A DNA stretch of 20,114 nt. Origin: a virus. Below, one piece after another: positions 1,868-17,361 of the stretch. Below the pieces are notes generated by a model. That model did not search any database, was not told where the DNA came from, and was given only the letters and a program-made list of their open reading frames with translations. The position numbers and the translations under genes were made by a program. Positions within the stretch are counted from its first letter, which is position 1; each line of letters starts with the position of its first letter. The stretch covers positions 1 to 20,114 of the IMG/VR virus record IMGVR_UViG_3300023284_000592; one strand, given 5' to 3'.

Positions 1868-1897
1868 ATTATATCCAAAAAAACAGAGTGGGCACAA
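1868..1897 (-). promoter_or_regulatory. Possible promoter for the gp36-like gene
   Basis: A perfect TATAAT lies at 1868-1873 on the minus strand, with TTGTGC 18 nt upstream (1892-1897) as a weak -35. Transcription would start at or next to the ATG at 1861, giving a leaderless message. The -35 falls inside the terminator hairpin, so this may be chance in an AT-rich spacer. Confidence 0.25.
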
Positions 1898-1909
1898 GTG
1901 CCCACCCTG
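1877..1909 (-). terminator. Rho-independent terminator after the major capsid gene
   Basis: On the minus strand an 11-bp stem (CAGGGTGGGCA at 1909-1899 with TGCCCACTCTG at 1894-1884, one G-U pair) closes a CTTG loop and is followed at once by seven Ts (1883-1877). This is a textbook intrinsic terminator about 40 nt after the capsid stop. A second, smaller hairpin (AGACAGC/GCTGTCT, 1922-1938) lies between the stop and the terminator and may stabilise the 3' end of the capsid message. Read-through or the weak promoter at 1868 would be needed for the genes to the left. Confidence 0.9.
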
Positions 1910-1949
1910 TAGCATTTACCCAGACAGCGTGGCTGTCTAGCGCTGGCGT

Positions 1950-6593: not shown

Positions 6594-6968
6594 TCAGGGC
6601 TCGCTGGTGCTGGCCATTTCTTTATCTTCTTTTTCAATCCTGAGCCTAAGCCTTTCATCACATCTTTTCTTTGCTGCTTCATCACCCTCATAGTTGCCAG
6701 ACCACCACTCAGCAAACTCTTCTTCTGATCTGCCAAGGTGTACAGTGTGGTGATGGTGCAGCAGTTTCTTTCTGCCAAGCTTCTCAGTAATCCATTGCAT
6801 GACTGCACCCCTATTAGAAACCTTTGCCCATTTGGTGCTTTGCTCAGGATCATCTAAGCCATCAGGCCAACCAAACCTGTTAAGCGTGCTGTACCACTCT
6901 GCAAGAGTATCATCATCTTGTGCCCTAAGCACTGGCAATTGTTCAGGTGTTGGTGTGCCTCTGTTCAT
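6594..6968 (-). CDS. Hypothetical protein, 124 aa
   Basis: Starts at 6968, overlapping the stop of the 59-aa gene by ATGA. The protein is hydrophilic, with a cluster of four histidines at residues 75-78 (LLHHHHTVH), many Trp residues (25, 34, 47, 59, 88-89) and a charged C-terminal half (DEAAKKRCDERLRLRIEKED) that is probably helical. No family recognised. It lies just before the head morphogenesis gene and after the XRE regulator, in the same leftward transcription unit. Confidence 0.7.
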   Translation of the reverse strand: MNRGTPTPEQLPVLRAQDDDTLAEWYSTLNRFGWPDGLDDPEQSTKWAKVSNRGAVMQWITEKLGRKKLLHHHHTVHLGRSEEEFAEWWSGNYEGDEAAKKRCDERLRLRIEKEDKEMASTSEP

Positions 6969-7144
6969 TTGGCTTTGTCCAATCGTGCAATCAATTCTTC
7001 TGCTGTCTCATTTTTTAGCCCATAGGGTTTACCTTTGATGATCACTGTGACAAACTCATTGTACTGGCGAATAGGCCCAACATCAGATGGGAAACACCAG
7101 ATGGTGCCATTGGCCACCAGCTCTATTTTTATTCTGTCACTCAT
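6965..7144 (-). CDS. Hypothetical protein, 59 aa
   Basis: A short gene that fills the gap between the XRE regulator and the 124-aa gene exactly: its ATG at 7144 overlaps the upstream TGA (ATGA) and its own TGA overlaps the next ATG (ATGA). The product begins MSDRIKIELVANGTIW, contains VTVIIKGKPYGLKN in the middle and ends in LIARLDKAK. It looks like a small beta-sheet domain with a helix at the end. No family recognised. Double coupling makes it a convincing gene despite its size. Confidence 0.75.
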   Translation of the reverse strand: MSDRIKIELVANGTIWCFPSDVGPIRQYNEFVTVIIKGKPYGLKNETAEELIARLDKAK

Positions 7145-7365
7145 TTCTTAAGCACCACATCAATCTTGCAGATTAGTTTCATCCCCAGAGAATTGGCCAG
7201 CTTTCTTACATTGGCTTCATTCATTCCCCGCTTACCAGCGAAAAATTCACTGATACGATTCTGAGCCAAGTGAGTCTTCTTAGACAGGGCACCTTGGCTG
7301 AGCTGTAAAAAAGCTGCTCGCTTTCGCAACTTGGTACTTATCTTTTTATCATCAATGATTGTCAT
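7141..7365 (-). CDS. XRE/Cro-family helix-turn-helix regulator, 74 aa
   Basis: Residues 18-58 form a HTH of the Cro/CI type: LSQGALSKKTHLAQNRISEF is helix 2-turn-helix 3, followed by GKRGMNEANVRKLANSLGMK, as in HigA-like antitoxins and small phage repressors. The start at 7365 (MTIIDDKKIS) has AAGG 5 nt upstream; the longer frame to 7431 is inside the upstream gene. It is the second gene after a promoter with a palindromic operator (7826-7841), so it is a candidate to bind the four shared operators and control itself. That link is inference. No toxin-like partner is evident, though the 77-aa gene upstream could be one. Confidence 0.82.
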   Translation of the reverse strand: MTIIDDKKISTKLRKRAAFLQLSQGALSKKTHLAQNRISEFFAGKRGMNEANVRKLANSLGMKLICKIDVVLKK

Positions 7366-7585
7366 GGGTGCCTTTTGTTTCTGCAAAGATTTTAAATTTA
7401 TCAAGATCAAACACAGGCCCAGTCTCTGCATTTACATGCTGCCTACCTTCAGCATCACAGCTGGGTACTGGCCCATTTCTCAAAACCTTAAAGCCATTCT
7501 CAGCACACCATAAGAGAGCATCAGCAAGCTCTTCATGCTGGCCAATGATGGTGACTCTGGTGAATGTTTCAAAAGATTTATTCAT
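7352..7585 (-). CDS. Hypothetical protein, 77 aa, first gene of the left operon
   Basis: The start is placed at 7585 (MNKSFETFTRVTIIGQHEEL), not at 7612, because codons upstream are the T-arm of a tRNA-like element. The ATG lies 2 nt after the tRNA-like discriminator base and has no ribosome site, which suggests leaderless translation after 3' processing. The protein is small and soluble, with ADALLWCAENGFKVLRNGP in its first half and a single Cys pair (29 and 46). It overlaps the XRE regulator by 14 nt. No family recognised; a partner of the regulator is possible. Confidence 0.65.
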   Translation of the reverse strand: MNKSFETFTRVTIIGQHEELADALLWCAENGFKVLRNGPVPSCDAEGRQHVNAETGPVFDLDKFKIFAETKGTHDNH

Positions 7586-7587
7586 AA

Positions 7588-7707
7588 TCGGCTGGGTGGG
7601 AATTGAACCCACTTAATCAGTGTCTCTGCCCTACAGCTGGCTGTTGCTGATTTATTGCGATTGCCTGCAGTCGCTCAGTGCTATCCAATTTTTGCACCTT
7701 CCAAGCC
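7588..7707 (-). ncRNA. tRNA-like element with long variable-arm-like insert
   Basis: The 3' end has a canonical T-arm: GTGGG, loop TTCAATT, CCCAC (7612-7596), then CCAGCCG and discriminator A (7588), without encoded CCA. A 5' GGCTTGG (7707-7701) can pair with CCAGCC with one bulged T. A D-like arm follows: GTGC / GCAC with a GG-containing loop. GCGA/TCGC could form a third arm, and AATCAG/CTGATT closes a long arm where a variable arm would be. No normal anticodon arm is present. It may be a decayed tRNA or a tRNA mimic. The next gene starts 2 nt after its 3' end. Confidence 0.45.
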
Positions 7708-7712
7708 TGTGT

Positions 7713-7740
7713 GGCTGAGCGCGGCGTAGTGCGCCCAGCC
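7713..7740 (-). ncRNA. Strong leader hairpin upstream of the tRNA-like element
   Basis: On the minus strand GGCTGGGCGC (7740-7731) pairs with GCGCTCAGCC (7722-7713) over 10 bp with one G-U pair, loop ACTACGCC. The same site on the plus strand has an A-C mismatch, so the minus-strand RNA is the better fold. It is not followed by a T-run and is not a simple terminator. The first 7 bases could alternatively pair with CCCAGCC at the 3' end of the tRNA-like element. CpG is locally abundant, unlike the rest of the window. Confidence 0.5.
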
Positions 7741-7757
7741 TTATCGGAGCTTTTCGT

Positions 7758-7769
7758 TTAATAACACAT
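7758..7769 (-). other. Leader minigene Met-Cys-Tyr-stop with near-perfect ribosome site
   Basis: In the leader made from the leftward promoter, AAGGGGGTGA (7782-7773) is close to the full anti-Shine-Dalgarno complement and is followed by ATG at 7769, two codons (TGT, TAT) and TAA. Nothing longer is open from this ATG. It could be a minigene of the lambda bar type or a ribosome-binding control site for the structured leader. It may also be chance. Confidence 0.3.
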
Positions 7770-7823
7770 AGGTCACCCCCTTGGTTAAAGGATTCTTTAG
7801 GCTTCTCACCTTGAAGACACTTC

Positions 7824-7852
7824 ACATTACACCAATGTAATTACTGTGTCAA
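7824..7852 (-). promoter_or_regulatory. Leftward promoter with operator, left operon
   Basis: TTGACA (7852-7847), 17-nt spacer and TAATGT (7829-7824) on the minus strand. The spacer and -10 hold the dyad ATTACACCAATGTAAT (7826-7841 on the plus strand), with perfect 6-bp arms ATTACA/TGTAAT. It directs transcription into the structured leader and the XRE regulator operon. Confidence 0.75.
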
Positions 7853-7888: not shown

Positions 7889-7917
7889 TTGACAGCTCAT
7901 TACACTTGTGTAATAAT
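7889..7917 (+). promoter_or_regulatory. Rightward promoter with operator, accessory cassette
   Basis: TTGACA (7889-7894), 17-nt spacer and AATAAT (7912-7917; TAATAA one base earlier is an alternative). The dyad ATTACACTTGTGTAAT (7899-7914), with perfect 7-bp arms, fills the spacer and overlaps the -10. It is divergent from the leftward promoter; the two operator centres are 73 bp apart, about seven helical turns. Confidence 0.8.
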
Positions 7918-7941: not shown

Positions 7942-8187
7942 ATGAAACTCACCAAAAACCAACAAAAATTGCACAGCCAATCAATCCAAGAAGGCCCAGT
8001 TTGGTGCTACGGTGGGGGTACTCGCACAGCCTACAGCCTTGACCGCAAAGGCATAGGTCATACCACCAGCACACCACCCAATGGCCAGCCCTACAATCTC
8101 AGCCCTTATGGTACTTACTATGTTGCCAACAACTGGGCCTTTAATCAGGTCACTAAGCTATGGGAATTGGTGAATAATAAAAACTAA
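7942..8187 (+). CDS. Hypothetical protein, 81 aa, first gene of rightward cassette
   Basis: Starts with ATG at 7942 after an AAAGGG site. The product opens MKLTKNQQKLHSQSIQEG and is rich in Gly, Asn, Tyr and Thr in the middle (YGGGTRTAYSLDRKGIG; residues 23-39), with Trp near the start and end. There is no signal peptide or recognised family. It is the first gene after the operator-controlled rightward promoter, so it is probably an early or lysogeny-related product. It is followed after 13 nt by the 79-aa gene. Confidence 0.7.
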   Translation: MKLTKNQQKLHSQSIQEGPVWCYGGGTRTAYSLDRKGIGHTTSTPPNGQPYNLSPYGTYYVANNWAFNQVTKLWELVNNKN

Positions 8188-8841: not shown

Positions 8842-8870
8842 TTGACAGCCCATTACACTAGTGATAGGAT
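8842..8870 (+). promoter_or_regulatory. Second rightward promoter with degenerate operator
   Basis: TTGACA (8842-8847), 17-nt spacer and TAGGAT (8865-8870). The spacer begins GCCCATTACACTAGTG, with the left operator arm intact (ATTACAC, 8852-8858) but the right arm decayed (GTGATAG for GTGTAAT). Transcription should start about 8877, 2 nt before the ATG at 8879, so the message is probably leaderless. Confidence 0.65.
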
Positions 8871-8878
8871 TGCCCACC

Positions 8879-9061
8879 ATGTCAACAGTCACCCTGCAAG
8901 ATTTAAGAGACAGGCTCAAGCTTCAAGAAGCCCTGCTTAAAAAACAATCTGCCAAACTTAATAGGCTCATGGCAGCAGCCAGTATTGTTGATATCAATAT
9001 TACAAGAAAACAATCAATAATCTTAGAGCTGAAGCAAAAGATTGCTGGCCTTGAAAGGTAA
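8879..9061 (+). CDS. Small coiled-coil protein, 60 aa
   Basis: I place the start at ATG 8879 (MSTVTLQDLRDRLKLQEALL); a GTG at 8861 lies inside the promoter. The protein is almost entirely helical with Leu/Ile at heptad-like spacing (LKLQEALLKKQSAKLNRLM, then ILELKQKIAGLER), so a coiled-coil dimer is likely. No ribosome site is seen and the promoter predicts a leaderless message. Function unknown; its own promoter with a weakened operator suggests expression when the other operators are closed. Confidence 0.65.
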   Translation: MSTVTLQDLRDRLKLQEALLKKQSAKLNRLMAAASIVDINITRKQSIILELKQKIAGLER

Positions 9062-9352: not shown

Positions 9353-10114
9353 TCATTCTGCGATCACAGATGTGTCATTCTCTTCAGGCCAGATACCTAC
9401 ATAATTCTTCATGCTGTGGTGTGCTGGGTCACCCTTAAGCACTGACCATACCCAGGCCCAGATGCCCATTCGCTTCTTGAGCTTCTTACCACACCACCAC
9501 TGCAGCTTGCCAACGTGCCTGAAGCCCATTACCCACATCGGCAAGTGTGGTACTGGGTCATTTCTAAAATGATATCGGTAAGTTATCTTGCCCAAGATCG
9601 CATTGTATAAACGTCTGAAGGTGCTGTTGCCCACCCTCGGTGCGCCGAAGGTAACCACTGCAACTGGCTTTGAATCTCGCCTACTGAGCATCATGGCAAA
9701 GAGACAAGCAAGCGAGCCACCCAGGCTGTGGCCTGTAATGAAGATATGCTTGCCCTCATGGGCCTGTACCAGCTTCCAGAGCTTTGGCCATACTATCTCA
9801 ATGGCTTGGTGAAAGCCTCTGTGGATTGAGCCCCAGGCCACTGGCACCTTTCTAAACTGCAGATCAGTAATGATATCCCTGAATTTATCTTTAAGGTGTT
9901 TCAGCCAGCCAAAGAAACCACTGTATGTGCCCTTGGATTTCTCAATCGGCTCAGTGCCCCTGAAAGCGAACACCAAAAAGTCAGCATCCTCAAATATATA
10001 TACCTGGGTGCCATTATTCTGGATGAGATCAACCTGATAATCAGGGTGGGCTTTCTTCACCTGCTCAAGATCGCCATAAGCAGAGAGTGACATTTTGGCT
10101 AAGGTGTCATGCAT
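9353..10114 (-). CDS. Class 3 lipase (alpha/beta hydrolase), 253 aa
   Basis: A Lipase_3 family enzyme expected to cleave acyl esters of lipids. Visible: FRGTEP at residues 51-56 (oxyanion region), the nucleophile elbow GHSLGG at 128-133 with Ser130, FGAPRVGN at 156-163, Asp186 in NDPVPHLP and His232/His233 in AHHSMKNYVG, so the triad is complete. There is no signal peptide. The region 195-225 is rich in Trp, Lys and Gly and may touch membrane. It is the last gene of the leftward operon, after a probable lipoprotein. A role in lysis, membrane attack or virion entry is possible; none is shown. Starts at 10114; the Met at residue 8 is an alternative. Confidence 0.88.
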   Translation of the reverse strand: MHDTLAKMSLSAYGDLEQVKKAHPDYQVDLIQNNGTQVYIFEDADFLVFAFRGTEPIEKSKGTYSGFFGWLKHLKDKFRDIITDLQFRKVPVAWGSIHRGFHQAIEIVWPKLWKLVQAHEGKHIFITGHSLGGSLACLFAMMLSRRDSKPVAVVTFGAPRVGNSTFRRLYNAILGKITYRYHFRNDPVPHLPMWVMGFRHVGKLQWWCGKKLKKRMGIWAWVWSVLKGDPAHHSMKNYVGIWPEENDTSVIAE

Positions 10115-13115: not shown

Positions 13116-14597
13116 TCATCCTAAGATTATTCTGGCACCTTCACCTGGGCCATCTAAAGCGTCTGGGGCTCTGACCCTGCGAACAGTATACACCCAATGA
13201 CTGAAAGCCTCTGAAGCATGTGTAATCTGTTGGTCGCCCTTATCAACATTGGTGCCTTGATCATTCCACACCACATTTTCAAAGTCAGTGTGCAAACGCT
13301 CGCACCTTGAGTGTACTCTTACGTGTCTGGTTTTATCAAAATCACAAAGGGCTTCATTGACTGAATTGGCAAGGTCAATGGGGCTTGGGTGACTGCGAGC
13401 AAAGTACAGCTCAACATTGATATCTGCAGCTTCAAGTGCCTGCTTGATTACATCGATTCTAGTAATGCCAGACTCAATACCTCTTGAGCCCCCAGCTGGA
13501 TCACCATACACCTTGACCGATGGGAAGGGGCCAACCTCTTTATAAAAAGCAATGAATGCTGTAAGCAGTTTCTGCAAGCTCATGCCATGGCCAAAGATTT
13601 CATAGGGCACAGTAAACATATCATCGATGCCATCATAATGCCCTATCTCTCCATGCATCCCAGGGTTAATGTTGAAGTCAACACACAAGCACAAAGGCTT
13701 ACTTTTATCAAGCCTGATTTCATCATTTATATTTGCATCTGAATAGCTGTCATACACAGCACCAACTGCTTGCTCCATGGGGCTCTGTTGATAGAGAGGC
13801 CCCCAGTTAACACCCATGTCTTTCTTGATTTGCTCAAGCGCCTTAAGGCTGTACCTCTCTGGGCAAAGAGGCTCACCCTTTTTCTGATACAGTCGGGGGT
13901 TATCCTCATCAGCAATCGCTTGGGCTGTAATAACATCCCATCCATCTTTGGTCTTGACATGGTGACTGATATCTTTCTTGTGCCATCGCTGCATTGTGAC
14001 AAGCACAGATGCCCCAGGCTCAGCCCTACTCATGAAGGTGGTGTCAAACCACTCACTTGTCTGTCTTCTATAGGTGGGTGAGTAAGCTTCTTTTCTGGAT
14101 TTAACAGGATCATCAACAATGCCCAGATCAAAACCAAAGCCAATGATAGGCGAGTTAACACCAGCACAGAGAACACCACCACCTTCAGGGGTAAGAAACT
14201 TACCAGCAGCATCCGCATCTTCTCTGAGCTTAATACTGATGAGGGGGTTGCCTCTGATCTCATCGCGCACAATCCGCCCAAACTCAACAGCGAGTGTATT
14301 ACCATAACTGGCAATGATTACCCTTTTGTGTGGCCAAGTCTCAAGAAACCAAAGAGCTGTCCAGACACTAGTGAGCAATGACTTGCCATGCCTGGGTGGG
14401 CCATTAAGAAGTAAGCGACCACCATCCTTGGCGACTGTATCAGCAATCGCTTCACCAACAGGGATGAGCCATTTGTAGGGCAGCCACTTACCACCAGATG
14501 CACGCTCAGCATAAGTGTGGGGCTGCACCTTCCATGCCCAGGGTGGCAGCTCTTTAGCTTTAGCCTTTTTCTTTTGTCTTTTAGTTTTGATCCTCAT
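13116..14597 (-). CDS. terL: Terminase large subunit (ATPase-nuclease), 493 aa
   Basis: The DNA packaging motor and cutter. Walker A is GPPRHGKS at residues 66-73; a Walker B-like LGIVDDP ends with Asp162-Asp163; TMQRWH at 201-206 matches the coupling region. The C-terminal nuclease (RNase H-like) shows CVDFNINPG with Asp307 and YGDPAGGSRG with Asp366. The N-terminus is Lys/Arg-rich. I chose ATG 14597 because AAGG lies 6 nt before it; the ATG at 14603 touches that site. It overlaps the NADAR gene by 17 nt. The small subunit lies about 4.3 kb upstream, separated by a terminator and new promoter. Confidence 0.93.
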   Translation of the reverse strand: MRIKTKRQKKKAKAKELPPWAWKVQPHTYAERASGGKWLPYKWLIPVGEAIADTVAKDGGRLLLNGPPRHGKSLLTSVWTALWFLETWPHKRVIIASYGNTLAVEFGRIVRDEIRGNPLISIKLREDADAAGKFLTPEGGGVLCAGVNSPIIGFGFDLGIVDDPVKSRKEAYSPTYRRQTSEWFDTTFMSRAEPGASVLVTMQRWHKKDISHHVKTKDGWDVITAQAIADEDNPRLYQKKGEPLCPERYSLKALEQIKKDMGVNWGPLYQQSPMEQAVGAVYDSYSDANINDEIRLDKSKPLCLCVDFNINPGMHGEIGHYDGIDDMFTVPYEIFGHGMSLQKLLTAFIAFYKEVGPFPSVKVYGDPAGGSRGIESGITRIDVIKQALEAADINVELYFARSHPSPIDLANSVNEALCDFDKTRHVRVHSRCERLHTDFENVVWNDQGTNVDKGDQQITHASEAFSHWVYTVRRVRAPDALDGPGEGARIILG

Positions 14598-15042
14598 TAG
14601 CATCCTTGCGTATCTTCATCAAGATCAGACCCAGCTGATTCTGCCCAAGCCCATTGCACATGCCCCAGAAAGTATCATGCCACTCATTGCCCTCAATCAG
14701 CTCTGCATTACCAGTGGCCTGCAGTAACCTCTTGAGATAGTGATTGGCAAACTTCTTGCGCAGTATACGCTCCATCACTTCAAGCTTCTCAGCATCCCAT
14801 CCTTCACGGATATGGATACCTTGGCCTGCTCGCGTAGCTTGGCCTGGAGTACTCTTGTTGGCGATGAATAATTTAACATGGCGATGCTTGCTCTTCTGTG
14901 CTTGGTATGCATGCTCTGATGATGGGTACTGAATGCCCCCAAAGTCAACAGCGCACAAATAGAAGTTGCTTAAAAAGTGGTGGTCACCTTTGAAAGAAGT
15001 GATGGGGTCTAATTGTTTTTTCTTAATCTTCACTTGACTCAT
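14581..15042 (-). CDS. NADAR-domain (YbiA-like) ADP-ribose enzyme, 153 aa
   Basis: Nearly the whole protein is a NADAR domain: FLSNFY at residues 23-28, YPSSEHAYQAQK at 39-50, a Gly-rich AGQGIHIREGWDAEKLEVM region at 72-90, LIEGNEWHDTFWG at 115-127 and GQNQLGLILMKIR at 133-145. These include the conserved Glu/Asp and Trp positions of the family. NADAR proteins have been shown to remove ADP-ribose from guanine in DNA; others act in riboflavin metabolism. A phage copy next to the terminase may counter DNA ADP-ribosylating defence (DarT-type). That role is inference. Start taken at the second of two ATGs (15042/15045) after AAGG. Confidence 0.88.
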   Translation of the reverse strand: MSQVKIKKKQLDPITSFKGDHHFLSNFYLCAVDFGGIQYPSSEHAYQAQKSKHRHVKLFIANKSTPGQATRAGQGIHIREGWDAEKLEVMERILRKKFANHYLKRLLQATGNAELIEGNEWHDTFWGMCNGLGQNQLGLILMKIRKDANEDQN

Positions 15043-15247
15043 CATCCTTGATGGGTTCACCACAGCTGGGGCAATAATCAAATAATGTGCAGTACTCAGC
15101 AAATGATTCAGCTAGTGGATCGATTGCAGCTTTTGCAAAAACAAAGAGTTCCATTTTTAAAGTATTCAAACTAATCAATGCAACAATGCAGCCCTTATCA
15201 CTATCACAATCATGCTCAAGTTTTTTAGCTTTGCTCATGTGCAGCAT
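15023..15247 (-). CDS. Small protein with CPSC zinc-knuckle end, 74 aa
   Basis: Four in-frame Mets are possible (15253, 15250, 15247, 15238). I choose 15247 because AAGGA lies 6 nt upstream. The N-terminal half has Cys residues (HDCDSDKGC), the middle is hydrophobic (LFVFAKAAIDPLAESFAEYC), and the end has Tyr-Cys-Pro-Ser-Cys-Gly-Glu followed by an acidic tail. A single CxxC and scattered cysteines suggest a small metal site. It overlaps the 58-aa gene upstream and the NADAR gene downstream. No family recognised. Confidence 0.65.
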   Translation of the reverse strand: MLHMSKAKKLEHDCDSDKGCIVALISLNTLKMELFVFAKAAIDPLAESFAEYCTLFDYCPSCGEPIKDDESSED

Positions 15248-15401: not shown

Positions 15402-15885
15402 GGCACACTTGCTTTGCTGCAGTCTTCTGCTTCTTACGAATCTTCCAGAGGCCCCTTGGCAGTGAGCTTGCAATGATGAAGTTAATGCCCAGCTCTTCAC
15501 CCCTGACCATGAGCAGCATGGCCATGCCATAGGCTTCCCACTTGTAAGAGCCTGCTCTTCCCTTCCCCATCATCAGAGCTTGCCTGTACTGGCCCAGTTT
15601 CTTATGCATCTCATCATGAGGCTCCCACAGCCAGCCTGATTTGTATTGCCCAGGATCAAGCTTCAATGCTCTTAAGATACCTTCAAAGGCAAGCTCAGTG
15701 GGCTTGTCATAAGTAATATTATTCATTTCTTCTGGTGTAAGCTTGCCATCATCAGCCCAGCCAACCATGACATCAAGTGGACAACCTAGCGTCCATGCAG
15801 TGGCACCGATCGCGCACATTGAGCCCTCATCATTTGCAACTGTGCCTGCCTTTGCCTGGGTCATATCAATCATTACATCAATCAT
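15394..15885 (-). CDS. Hypothetical protein, 163 aa
   Basis: Start placed at 15885 (MIDVMIDMTQAKAG), with AAAGGG 6 nt upstream; the frame continues to 15948 through the 52-aa gene. The protein is helical with a Cys-containing first part (EGSMCAIGATAWTLGCPLD, residues 20-38), a Trp-rich middle (SGWLWEPHDEMHKKLGQYR) and a hydrophobic stretch around YGMAMLLMVRGEELGINFIIAS that is too polar for a clear membrane span. The C-terminus is Lys-rich. No family recognised. It overlaps genes on both sides and so is translated as part of the operon. Confidence 0.72.
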   Translation of the reverse strand: MIDVMIDMTQAKAGTVANDEGSMCAIGATAWTLGCPLDVMVGWADDGKLTPEEMNNITYDKPTELAFEGILRALKLDPGQYKSGWLWEPHDEMHKKLGQYRQALMMGKGRAGSYKWEAYGMAMLLMVRGEELGINFIIASSLPRGLWKIRKKQKTAAKQVCHV

Positions 15886-16667: not shown

Positions 16668-16840
16668 CAGTCACCCCCAAATGTTTCTGCACCAAGCTGC
16701 TCCATATCGCTAATCAAATCTTCCAACAGCTCTTTATTTTCCTCTTCAACAGCAAACTTGTTAAGCCACAGAGCTGCCTCAATCAACAGTAAAAGTTTAT
16801 CTTCAGTAAGCGACAGCTCAACCTCTTCTTGCTCTGCCAT
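16667..16840 (-). CDS. Small acidic helical protein, 57 aa
   Basis: ATG at 16840 shares its A with the stop of the LuxR-type gene, and its own TGA shares an A with the next start (both TGATG), so it lies in a fully coupled series. The product begins MAEQEEVELSLTEDKLLLLI, is about one quarter Glu/Asp, and is helical with leucine runs (EENKELLEDLISDMEQLG). It may dimerise as a coiled coil. No family recognised. Position next to a DNA-binding regulator suggests a possible partner; this is speculative. Confidence 0.72.
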   Translation of the reverse strand: MAEQEEVELSLTEDKLLLLIEAALWLNKFAVEEENKELLEDLISDMEQLGAETFGGD

Positions 16841-17166
16841 CAGTCACCACCTTCATCAAAAGTAATAAGCCCTTCACGCAAAGCACGCTTTACAAGAGCA
16901 ACAATGCTCCTGCGCCCATTGCCTTTTAATTCAAGCTTCACATAGATTGAGCTTACATGGTTCTGTATGGTTCTAATGCTTCTGAATAGAAGCTGAGCAA
17001 TTGCCTTGTCATTAAGCCCACTGACCATAAGCCTTACAATCTCAAGCTCTCTGGGCGAAAGCAGATCAGCCATGGTGGCAGGCCCAGCATATTCCCCAGC
17101 AGCTATTGGCTCATGCCCTTCAAGCTTCAGTGGGTAACTGTCATTATTCATGTATTCATCATTCAT
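16840..17166 (-). CDS. LuxR/GerE-type HTH regulator, 108 aa
   Basis: Residues 35-98 are a GerE domain: LLSPRELEIVRLMVSGLNDK, IAQLLFRSIRTIQNHVSSIY (recognition helix near 64-73) and KLELKGNGRRSIVALVKRA. There is no receiver or autoinducer domain, as in small regulators of the Spo0A/GerE type. The frame is open to 17253 but that part is tRNA-like sequence; the true start at 17166 (MNDEYMNNDSYPLKL) lies 2 nt after the tRNA-like 3' end without a ribosome site. A second Met at residue 6 is possible. First gene of the operon that holds large terminase and portal, behind a promoter with the shared operator. Confidence 0.85.
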   Translation of the reverse strand: MNDEYMNNDSYPLKLEGHEPIAAGEYAGPATMADLLSPRELEIVRLMVSGLNDKAIAQLLFRSIRTIQNHVSSIYVKLELKGNGRRSIVALVKRALREGLITFDEGGD

Positions 17167-17168
17167 AA

Positions 17169-17237
17169 TGGGCTGAGCTGGAATTGAACCAGCGACCTGG
17201 GTATTCACCCTGCTCTGCCAAACTGAGCTACCAGCCA
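17169..17237 (-). ncRNA. tRNA-like element lacking an anticodon arm
   Basis: Cloverleaf parts in order: acceptor TGGCTGG (17237-17231) pairing with TCAGCCC (17176-17170) in 6 of 7 positions (first pair T/C mismatched); TA; D-arm GCTC-AGTTTGGCA-GAGC; A; a 12-nt hairpin GGGT-GAAT-ACCC where 17 nt are expected; variable AGGTC; T-arm GCTGG-TTCAATT-CCAGC; discriminator A at 17169. CCA is not encoded. The short middle arm has no 7-nt anticodon loop, so it cannot decode normally. It could still be cut by RNase P or RNase Z. The LuxR-type gene starts 2 nt later. Confidence 0.65.
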
Positions 17238-17249
17238 CCACTGCCAAAG

Positions 17250-17278
17250 ACATTACATCACTGTAATTGATATGTCAA
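17250..17278 (-). promoter_or_regulatory. Leftward promoter with operator, LuxR-terminase operon
   Basis: TTGACA (17278-17273), 17-nt spacer and TAATGT (17255-17250) on the minus strand: the same boxes and spacing as the promoter at 7824-7852. The dyad ATTACATCACTGTAAT (17252-17267) has perfect 6-bp arms and lies at the same distance (5 nt) from the -35. Transcription starts near 17243, a few bases before the tRNA-like element. Confidence 0.78.
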
Positions 17279-17283
17279 GGTAA

Positions 17284-17361
17284 AAGGCTGGGGCCTGCTC
17301 AGTTGTCAAACTGTCCTGTTGATCTGGGGCGATCAGAAATGAGAGCAGGCCACCCAGCCTT
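17284..17361 (-). terminator. Large branched hairpin / terminator before the LuxR promoter
   Basis: On the minus strand AAGGCTGG-GT-GGCCTGCTC (17361-17343) pairs with GAGCAGGCC-CCAGCCTT (17300-17284): 17 bp with only a 2-nt bulge. The 42-nt interior holds two smaller perfect hairpins, TGATC-GCCCCA-GATCA and CAGTT-TGAC-AACTG, giving a three-way junction. The stem begins in the stop codon of the upstream gene and ends in TTTT (17285-17282), so it should terminate the small-terminase operon. The size and branching exceed what a terminator needs. Confidence 0.75.

Follow-up and report, generated by a model that had tools for sequence, protein, structure and literature searches.

tRNA-like elements between operator-controlled promoters and genes without a Shine-Dalgarno sequence: a candidate RNA-processing cassette in a tailed phage

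Introduction

In animal mitochondria, tRNAs punctuate the transcripts (Ojala et al. 1981, cited in PMC8003010). As that system is outlined there, a tRNA-shaped RNA abuts a start codon that has no ribosome-binding site, the cut yields a nearly leaderless mRNA, and odd tRNA shapes are tolerated, all of which recalls the phage units described here. The units differ from it in that they belong to a phage in a bacterium, have their own regulated promoters, and include at least one element (E2) that is non-decoding and would serve processing only.

Leaderless phage mRNAs are known as well, that of lambda cI being an example (PMC9031893, PMC4633059). As predicted for our units, mRNAs of this type carry regulatory phage genes at or next to the 5' end, with no Shine-Dalgarno sequence. 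The lambda cI mRNA is leaderless through its transcription start, whereas the 5' end in our units would come from processing of a tRNA-like leader. HK022 put offers another likeness, in that two related structured RNAs lie directly behind two promoters of long operons; put differs from our elements in that it does not imitate a tRNA and does not stand at a set distance from a start codon.

Phage-derived substrates of RNase P include the C4 antisense RNA, the M3 RNA and the T4 gene 32 mRNA (PMC11143913). They resemble our units as phage RNAs that imitate a tRNA for a host processing enzyme, and differ from them in being antisense RNAs or mRNA folds cut by RNase P. In contrast to our units, no T-arm/acceptor element right before a start codon is described in PMC11143913, and the units have no Rfam match among the RNAs treated there. 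Mitochondrial punctuation, leaderless phage mRNAs and phage RNAs cut by RNase P are each known singly. We found no report in open-licence papers of leaderless phage genes behind tRNA-like elements, nor of these parts being joined in a phage.

Results

Two promoter units in a tailed phage

The window, by which we mean the whole stretch of DNA analysed, comprises all 20,114 bases of one IMG/VR record, which comes from a tailed phage. It encodes a Mu-type portal (PF06074), a Mu F-like protein, a terminase and a capsid protein of the Phage_cap_E family, and nearly all of its structural genes are carried on the minus strand (Table 1). The phrog_1017 protein of the structural operon resembles a NADAR-type domain protein. 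IMG/VR searches with LuxR and portal profiles recovered only two relatives, L004 (7.1 kb, terminase 80% identical to that of the window) and the more distant L005 (a 43.6-kb contig, terminase 61%); L004 is the one close relative in the collections. A search of genome contigs with the portal protein for host or prophage relatives gave no match. As a side observation, L004:6440-6860 holds short repeated units (ATGGATAGT..., CCCCCCTA) surrounding an operator-like site, possibly a replication origin, and TATACTGTTC repeats occur at 5880-6220 in L005.

Two units on the minus strand share the layout TTGACA-N5-ATTACA-N4-TGTAATGT, followed by a tRNA-like element (E1 or E2), a discriminator base, TT and ATG. 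The initial annotation had drawn attention to this common order, to the identical -35 and -10 boxes with a dyad operator, and to a discriminator-TT-ATG junction without a ribosome site; both units lie where it had placed them, and the junction is present in each, with no Shine-Dalgarno sequence. The two promoters are identical in the -35 TTGACA, the 17-nt spacing and the hexamer TAATGT, which is a poor -10 (3/6 match) and overlaps the operator. Exact copies of the operator ATTACA-N4-TGTAAT stand in both units (Table 1) and, within the divergent promoter at 7889(+), at 7899-7914, and sites with up to two mismatches number 8 in the window, against 0.9 expected. The probable terminator that precedes the E2 promoter has a counterpart at the matching position of L004, where a terminator is present but different.

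Table 1. Features of the two units and their surroundings in the window.
Feature	Position	Strand	Evidence or remark
Strong intrinsic terminator (12 pairs, T6) within the E1/structural operon, following the major capsid gene	1883-1910	-	sequence
XRE/HTH_3 regulator, second gene after E1	7141..7365	-	PF01381 E 2e-4, below cutoff; 47% identical to L005 gene
77-aa gene, first in the head-morphogenesis operon	7352..7585	-	L005 homologue, 30% over 66 aa, E 6e-7
Junction TT-ATG at the start of the 77-aa gene; Shine-Dalgarno absent	7583..7587	-	sequence
E1, tRNA-like: D-like arm (loop A...GG..A), long variable region, canonical T-arm, bulged 5' acceptor strand	7588..7707	-	fold
10-bp hairpin GGCTGGGCGC...GCGCTCAGCC upstream of E1	7713..7740	-	sequence, fold
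ATG-TGT-TAT-TAA after AGGGGGTGA in the E1 leader, possibly a leader peptide of 3 codons	7758..7769	-	sequence
E1 promoter-operator, TTGACA-17 nt-TAATGT, operator 7826-7841	7824..7852	-	sequence
Divergent promoter, operator ATTACACTTGTGTAAT; its gene 7942-8187 has a Shine-Dalgarno	7889..7917	+	sequence
Promoter TTGACA-17-TAGGAT with half operator; ATG 9 nt past the -10	8842..8881	+	without tRNA-like element
Esterase/lipase, phrog_21992	9353-10114	-	in structural operon
Conserved phage protein, phrog_1017	14581-15102	-	in structural operon
LuxR/GerE-type regulator, 108 aa, heads the terminase-portal operon	16840..17166	-	PF00196 E 2e-11
Junction TT-ATG at the start of the LuxR-type gene; Shine-Dalgarno absent	17164..17168	-	conserved in E1 and L004
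E2, tRNA-Phe-like element, anticodon arm reduced to GGGU-GAAU-ACCC	17169..17237	-	RF00005
E2 T-arm GCTGG-TTCAATT-CCAGC	17177..17193	-	two compensatory pair changes vs E1 and E3
E2 promoter-operator, TTGACA-17 nt-TAATGT, dyad ATTACA-N4-TGTAAT at 17252-17267	17250..17278	-	spacing as in E1 and L004
Probable intrinsic terminator of the upstream operon, AAGGCTGGG...CCCAGCCTTTTA, just before the E2 promoter	17283..17361	-	sequence

One tRNA-Phe-like element and one weaker fold

Of the two elements, which had both been annotated as tRNA-like folds, E2 bore out the description and E1 did so weakly. E2 matched the tRNA family RF00005 at 39.4 bits (gathering 29, E 1.8e-7) over model positions 1-71, exactly from 17237 to 17169, a match that needs permissive filters and was missed by the default ones. 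It has a D-arm with GG in the loop, a T-arm and an acceptor, with a mismatch at position 1-72. E2 aligns to phage tRNA-Phe, and several of its best blastn matches are Phe tRNAs. The anticodon arm has been shrunk to a 4-bp stem with a GAAU tetraloop, so that E2 has no 7-nt anticodon loop and cannot decode, although the shrunken loop retains the UGAA of the Phe anticodon loop. The element begins about 5 nt past the predicted transcription start.

E1 remained below the RF00005 gathering score, and neither that model nor ARAGORN called a tRNA. It has no 7-nt anticodon loop; its fold scored z -2.65 when the flanking hairpin was included and only -1.1 for the cloverleaf alone. With an ambiguous 5' acceptor strand it is the weakest of the elements, and it begins about 110 nt past the predicted transcription start. 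BLAST also finds a 27-nt 3' part common to E1 and E2. The 5' strand of the hairpin upstream of E1 could alternatively pair with the 3' acceptor strand of E1, and the short leader frame plus this downstream hairpin form a possible attenuator-like leader.

The genes behind the units had been taken for regulators. This holds for the LuxR gene directly after E2, but the order behind E1 is the 77-aa gene, the XRE gene and then the head genes, and the XRE gene (start 7365) has its own RBS-like AAAGG. The units thus supply more than mRNAs for regulators: they head the two structural operons.

A third unit in the close relative

L004 holds one such unit, E3, with TTGACA-N5-ATTACAGCACTGTAATGT as its promoter, the element at 2514-2439, and, after TT-ATG, a homologue of the 108-aa LuxR/GerE gene (51% identity). 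Its 3' part reads T-arm GTGGG-TTCAATT-CCCAC, TCAGTCT, G, TT, ATG. The middle is a 10-bp hairpin with a 7-nt UUCUAGU loop, and there is no D-arm. E3 fell below the RF00005 threshold; its fold reached z -3.6 to -4.2, and 0/200 shuffles were as good. The acceptor can lengthen to 9 bp, taking in the discriminator, and the predicted transcript begins within a few nucleotides of the element. An assignment of E3 as tRNA-Pyl(CUA) was rejected, the acceptor being in the wrong register and having mismatches.

Promoter spacing, T-arm, 3' acceptor strand, discriminator, TT and ATG are common to the three units in the two phages, whereas the RNA middle differs in all three. Loss of the fold or the spacing in related genomes had been proposed as a test of the processing idea, and L004 retains the promoter spacing, the T-arm and the TT-ATG around a rewritten RNA middle. 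Pairs 2 and 3 of the T-stem are T-A and G-C in E1 and E3 but C-G and T-A in E2, both sides having changed, so that GTGGG/CCCAC versus GCTGG/CCAGC amounts to two compensatory changes. To judge from these comparisons, conservation covers the acceptor/T-arm domain together with the spacing and the promoter, and it is the would-be decoding part that varies. Differing RNA middles are what one would expect were conservation of the RNA confined to the acceptor/T-arm domain, which is what processing enzymes read. In folds of the full-length transcripts, the acceptor strands are partly paired elsewhere and the acceptor stem is not always kept. IMG/VR-wide scans with the promoter-operator pattern and with the T-arm-acceptor-TTATG pattern each matched only L004 besides the window.

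Chance expectation and controls

We compared the window with 1,500 simulated windows of the same dinucleotide make-up. The window has two T-arms with 5/5 pairs and TTCRANY, compared with 0.33 per simulated 20 kb. When an ATG was required exactly 3 nt past the 7-nt acceptor strand, there were again 2, compared with 0.010 per simulated window, and when an acceptor partner and an ORF of 60 or more amino acids were added, the 2 observed cases stood against none in the 1,500 simulations. Shine-Dalgarno sequences precede 14/26 genes of the window, compared with 5/26 control sites, and none was found at the starts behind E1, E2 and E3.

In regions of five cultured phages, none of the 88 tRNAs had an ORF start 1-8 nt downstream, and 0/45 tRNA-like matches from bacterial genomes with a short anticodon arm and intact stems had an ORF start within 12 nt. 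Since both controls lack adjacent starts, the arrangement at E1 and E2 is not a general side effect of tRNA genes. A tRNA/tmRNA scan with ARAGORN and Rfam at gathering score found no tmRNA, and Rfam scans gave no match to C4 antisense RNA at gathering score. Compared with punctuating tRNAs, all three elements have a 3' end that abuts the start codon (discriminator-TT-ATG), whereas E2 has no anticodon with which a released tRNA could decode; E2 would therefore work like a punctuating tRNA rather than be one.

Leaderless starts at related promoters

The syntenic operon of L005 has three operators, spelled ATTACC-N4-GGTAAT, at 15690-15803. Between L005 and the window, the operator spelling has diverged together with the XRE gene (47% identity). 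In L005 the homologue of the 77-aa gene starts about 8 nt past the -10 TAATAT, with no tRNA-like element between, and because of this short distance its mRNA should be leaderless. Transcription from the window's 8842(+) promoter is predicted to start within about 3 nt of the ATG and should likewise be nearly leaderless. Since the first gene of the syntenic operon in L005 and the window's 8842(+) gene are both predicted to start in this way, leaderless or nearly leaderless starts at regulated promoters seem to be a habit of this phage group. An element cut at its 3' end would give the same near-leaderless product, and this is our main argument for processing. Further T-arm-like sites in the phage of L005 (L169, 15268 minus) lie inside coding sequence.

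A possible processing cassette

The promoters, the elements, their exact spacing, the conservation, the compensatory change and the lack of Shine-Dalgarno sequences are all observed. We propose that each unit is a tRNA-like processing cassette that lies between a promoter and a gene without a Shine-Dalgarno sequence and whose 3' cut yields a UU-AUG mRNA, and we give this proposal a near-even chance of being right. We infer the cut and its enzyme, leaderless translation, and any gating along the following lines. The repressor-controlled promoter would give a transcript that starts with the element (E2, E3) or soon contains it (E1). The element would offer a tRNA acceptor stem and T-arm, in E2 without an anticodon, to the host tRNA 3'-trimming enzyme (RNase Z/BN, or RNase E in some hosts), which would cut past the discriminator base and free an mRNA beginning UU-AUG. 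70S ribosomes would then read this mRNA without a Shine-Dalgarno sequence; owing to the two spacer bases it is near-leaderless, not strictly leaderless. As long as the RNA is uncut, the stem, only two bases ahead of the AUG, would stand in the way of initiation, and processing may therefore gate the first gene of each structural operon.

The initial annotation had named RNase P and RNase Z as enzymes that recognise the acceptor/T-arm fold, and had suggested that tRNA-like processing may release nearly leaderless mRNAs. Because the predicted transcripts of E2 and E3 begin within a few nucleotides of the element, RNase P would hardly be needed there, and the cut that matters is the 3' cut. The annotation's processing idea is strengthened in part by the conservation in L004 and the compensatory T-stem changes, while the weak E1 with its ambiguous acceptor, the 1-72 mismatch of E2, the 9-bp acceptor of E3 and the acceptor-disturbing folds count against it. 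For the LuxR genes, translation could also truly begin further in, at an ATG that is conserved (M32 in the window protein).

A broader reading would make this a dedicated phage part, in which a promoter, a non-decoding tRNA-like cassette and a leaderless gene are combined, the cassette derives from a tRNA (E2 from a tRNA-Phe that lost its anticodon), and punctuation of starts by tRNAs is widespread in uncultivated phages whose remaining genes use Shine-Dalgarno sequences. We put this forward as doubtful, if possible. Were processing to take place as proposed, tRNA mimicry would make mRNA 5' ends in a bacterial virus, the start of the structural operons would hinge on a host tRNA enzyme, and mitochondrial-style tRNA punctuation would extend to phages. 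It would also account for phage genes without a ribosome-binding site that abut tRNA-like sequence, and would give a reason for phage tRNAs that are unable to decode.

Alternative explanations

The element might instead stay on the mRNA, stabilising the 5' end or controlling initiation, for example through a tRNA-recognising protein. E2 and E3 start within a few nucleotides of the predicted transcript start, which would make the tRNA-like fold the 5' end itself, and the AUG is only 2 nt from the stem. We consider this unlikely, though not negligible, since an AUG without a Shine-Dalgarno sequence 2 nt past a stable stem is a poor start unless the stem is removed, and a tRNA-like 3' end with a discriminator is a standard substrate for RNase Z or an exonuclease. 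An antitermination RNA of the put kind, that is a structured RNA behind a late-operon promoter which binds RNA polymerase in cis and reads through terminators, seems quite improbable. Its appeal lies in the position of both elements directly behind promoters of long structural operons, in the two related copies per phage, as with putL and putR, and in the strong terminator (12 pairs, T6) at 1910-1883 within the E1 operon. What is conserved, however, is a tRNA T-arm with TTCRANY, of which put RNAs have no need; E2 matches the tRNA family from end to end, and antitermination leaves the fixed TT-ATG unexplained.

The elements could also be decayed tRNA genes, once phage tRNAs (E2 a tRNA-Phe), that lost the anticodon arm and abut gene starts by chance. 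The alignment of E2 to tRNA-Phe and the UGAA kept in its shrunken loop agree with such an origin, as do short-anticodon tRNAs in bacterial genomes that have no gene behind them. Relics would not be expected to show two compensatory changes in the T-stem or three conserved units of promoter, element and TT-ATG, and only the anticodon part is affected, which makes simple decay rather unlikely. If the T-arm region instead encoded an N-terminal extension, GSIPxQPIM, of two proteins, the RNA fold would be incidental. In each of the three units the reading frame does cross the T-arm without a stop (GSIPTQPIM, GSIPAQPIM, GSIPTQSVM), and in E3 a GGGTGA precedes an in-frame ATG. But the T-stem changes alter amino acids yet keep the pairing, E2 has no start codon where E3 has one, a TAA closes the E1 frame just before the T-arm, and the extension is missing from the homologue of the 77-aa gene in L005, so that we hold a coding role to be very improbable. 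Barely credible is a remnant of integration sites, with tRNA 3' ends serving as attP-like sites: phage integrases often use tRNA T-arm sequences, but here two copies stand in one phage, each within a promoter unit, with a third in L004, no integrase was recognised among the proteins searched, and the tRNA-like part of E2 extends beyond the 3' half.

tRNAs abutting start codons in other phages

A scan of IMG/VR for GGTTCRANTCC-N11-TTATG matched at least 120 contigs, a count from which the frequency of the arrangement cannot be judged because the pattern was chosen to find such cases. Of the 122 distinct matches listed, 74 start an ORF of at least 50 codons. Ordinary phage tRNAs followed by discriminator-TT-ATG and a real gene without a Shine-Dalgarno sequence occur in L043-L160, for example at L059:9846+, L071:1907+, L082:2625+ and L084:2249+. 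Among the matches listed, the protein family match begins at residue 1-2 behind the tRNA-TT-ATG for a phosphoesterase (L059, L071), an oxygenase (L082) and endonuclease V (L084). Shine-Dalgarno use is normal in the tRNA-TT-ATG contigs listed (392/687, against 162 in the control). The other tRNAs in IMG/VR loci chosen for one such case had 10 ORF starts at 2 nt, compared with about 2.7 per position, a modest excess that is suggestive within these pattern-selected contigs. The generalisation that phage tRNAs abut starts did not hold in the five cultured phages (88 tRNAs); the modest IMG/VR excess leaves it as a candidate pattern.

Miniature tRNA-like elements, consisting of an acceptor and a T-arm with at most a short middle hairpin, were seen by the ATG of phage genes at L087:11379-11431, L145:1289-1329 and L150:3759-3814, of which the L150 element was dropped, its gene having a Shine-Dalgarno-led ATG four codons in. 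Another phage contig, L142, carries a D-armless tRNA-Ser(GCU)-like element on the minus strand, near 6862 of the reverse complement. In bacterial genomes, L218 and L270 contain tRNA genes with a shortened anticodon arm (GACATTATGTC and GCATTGTATAATG) and intact stems, which are apparently non-decoding.
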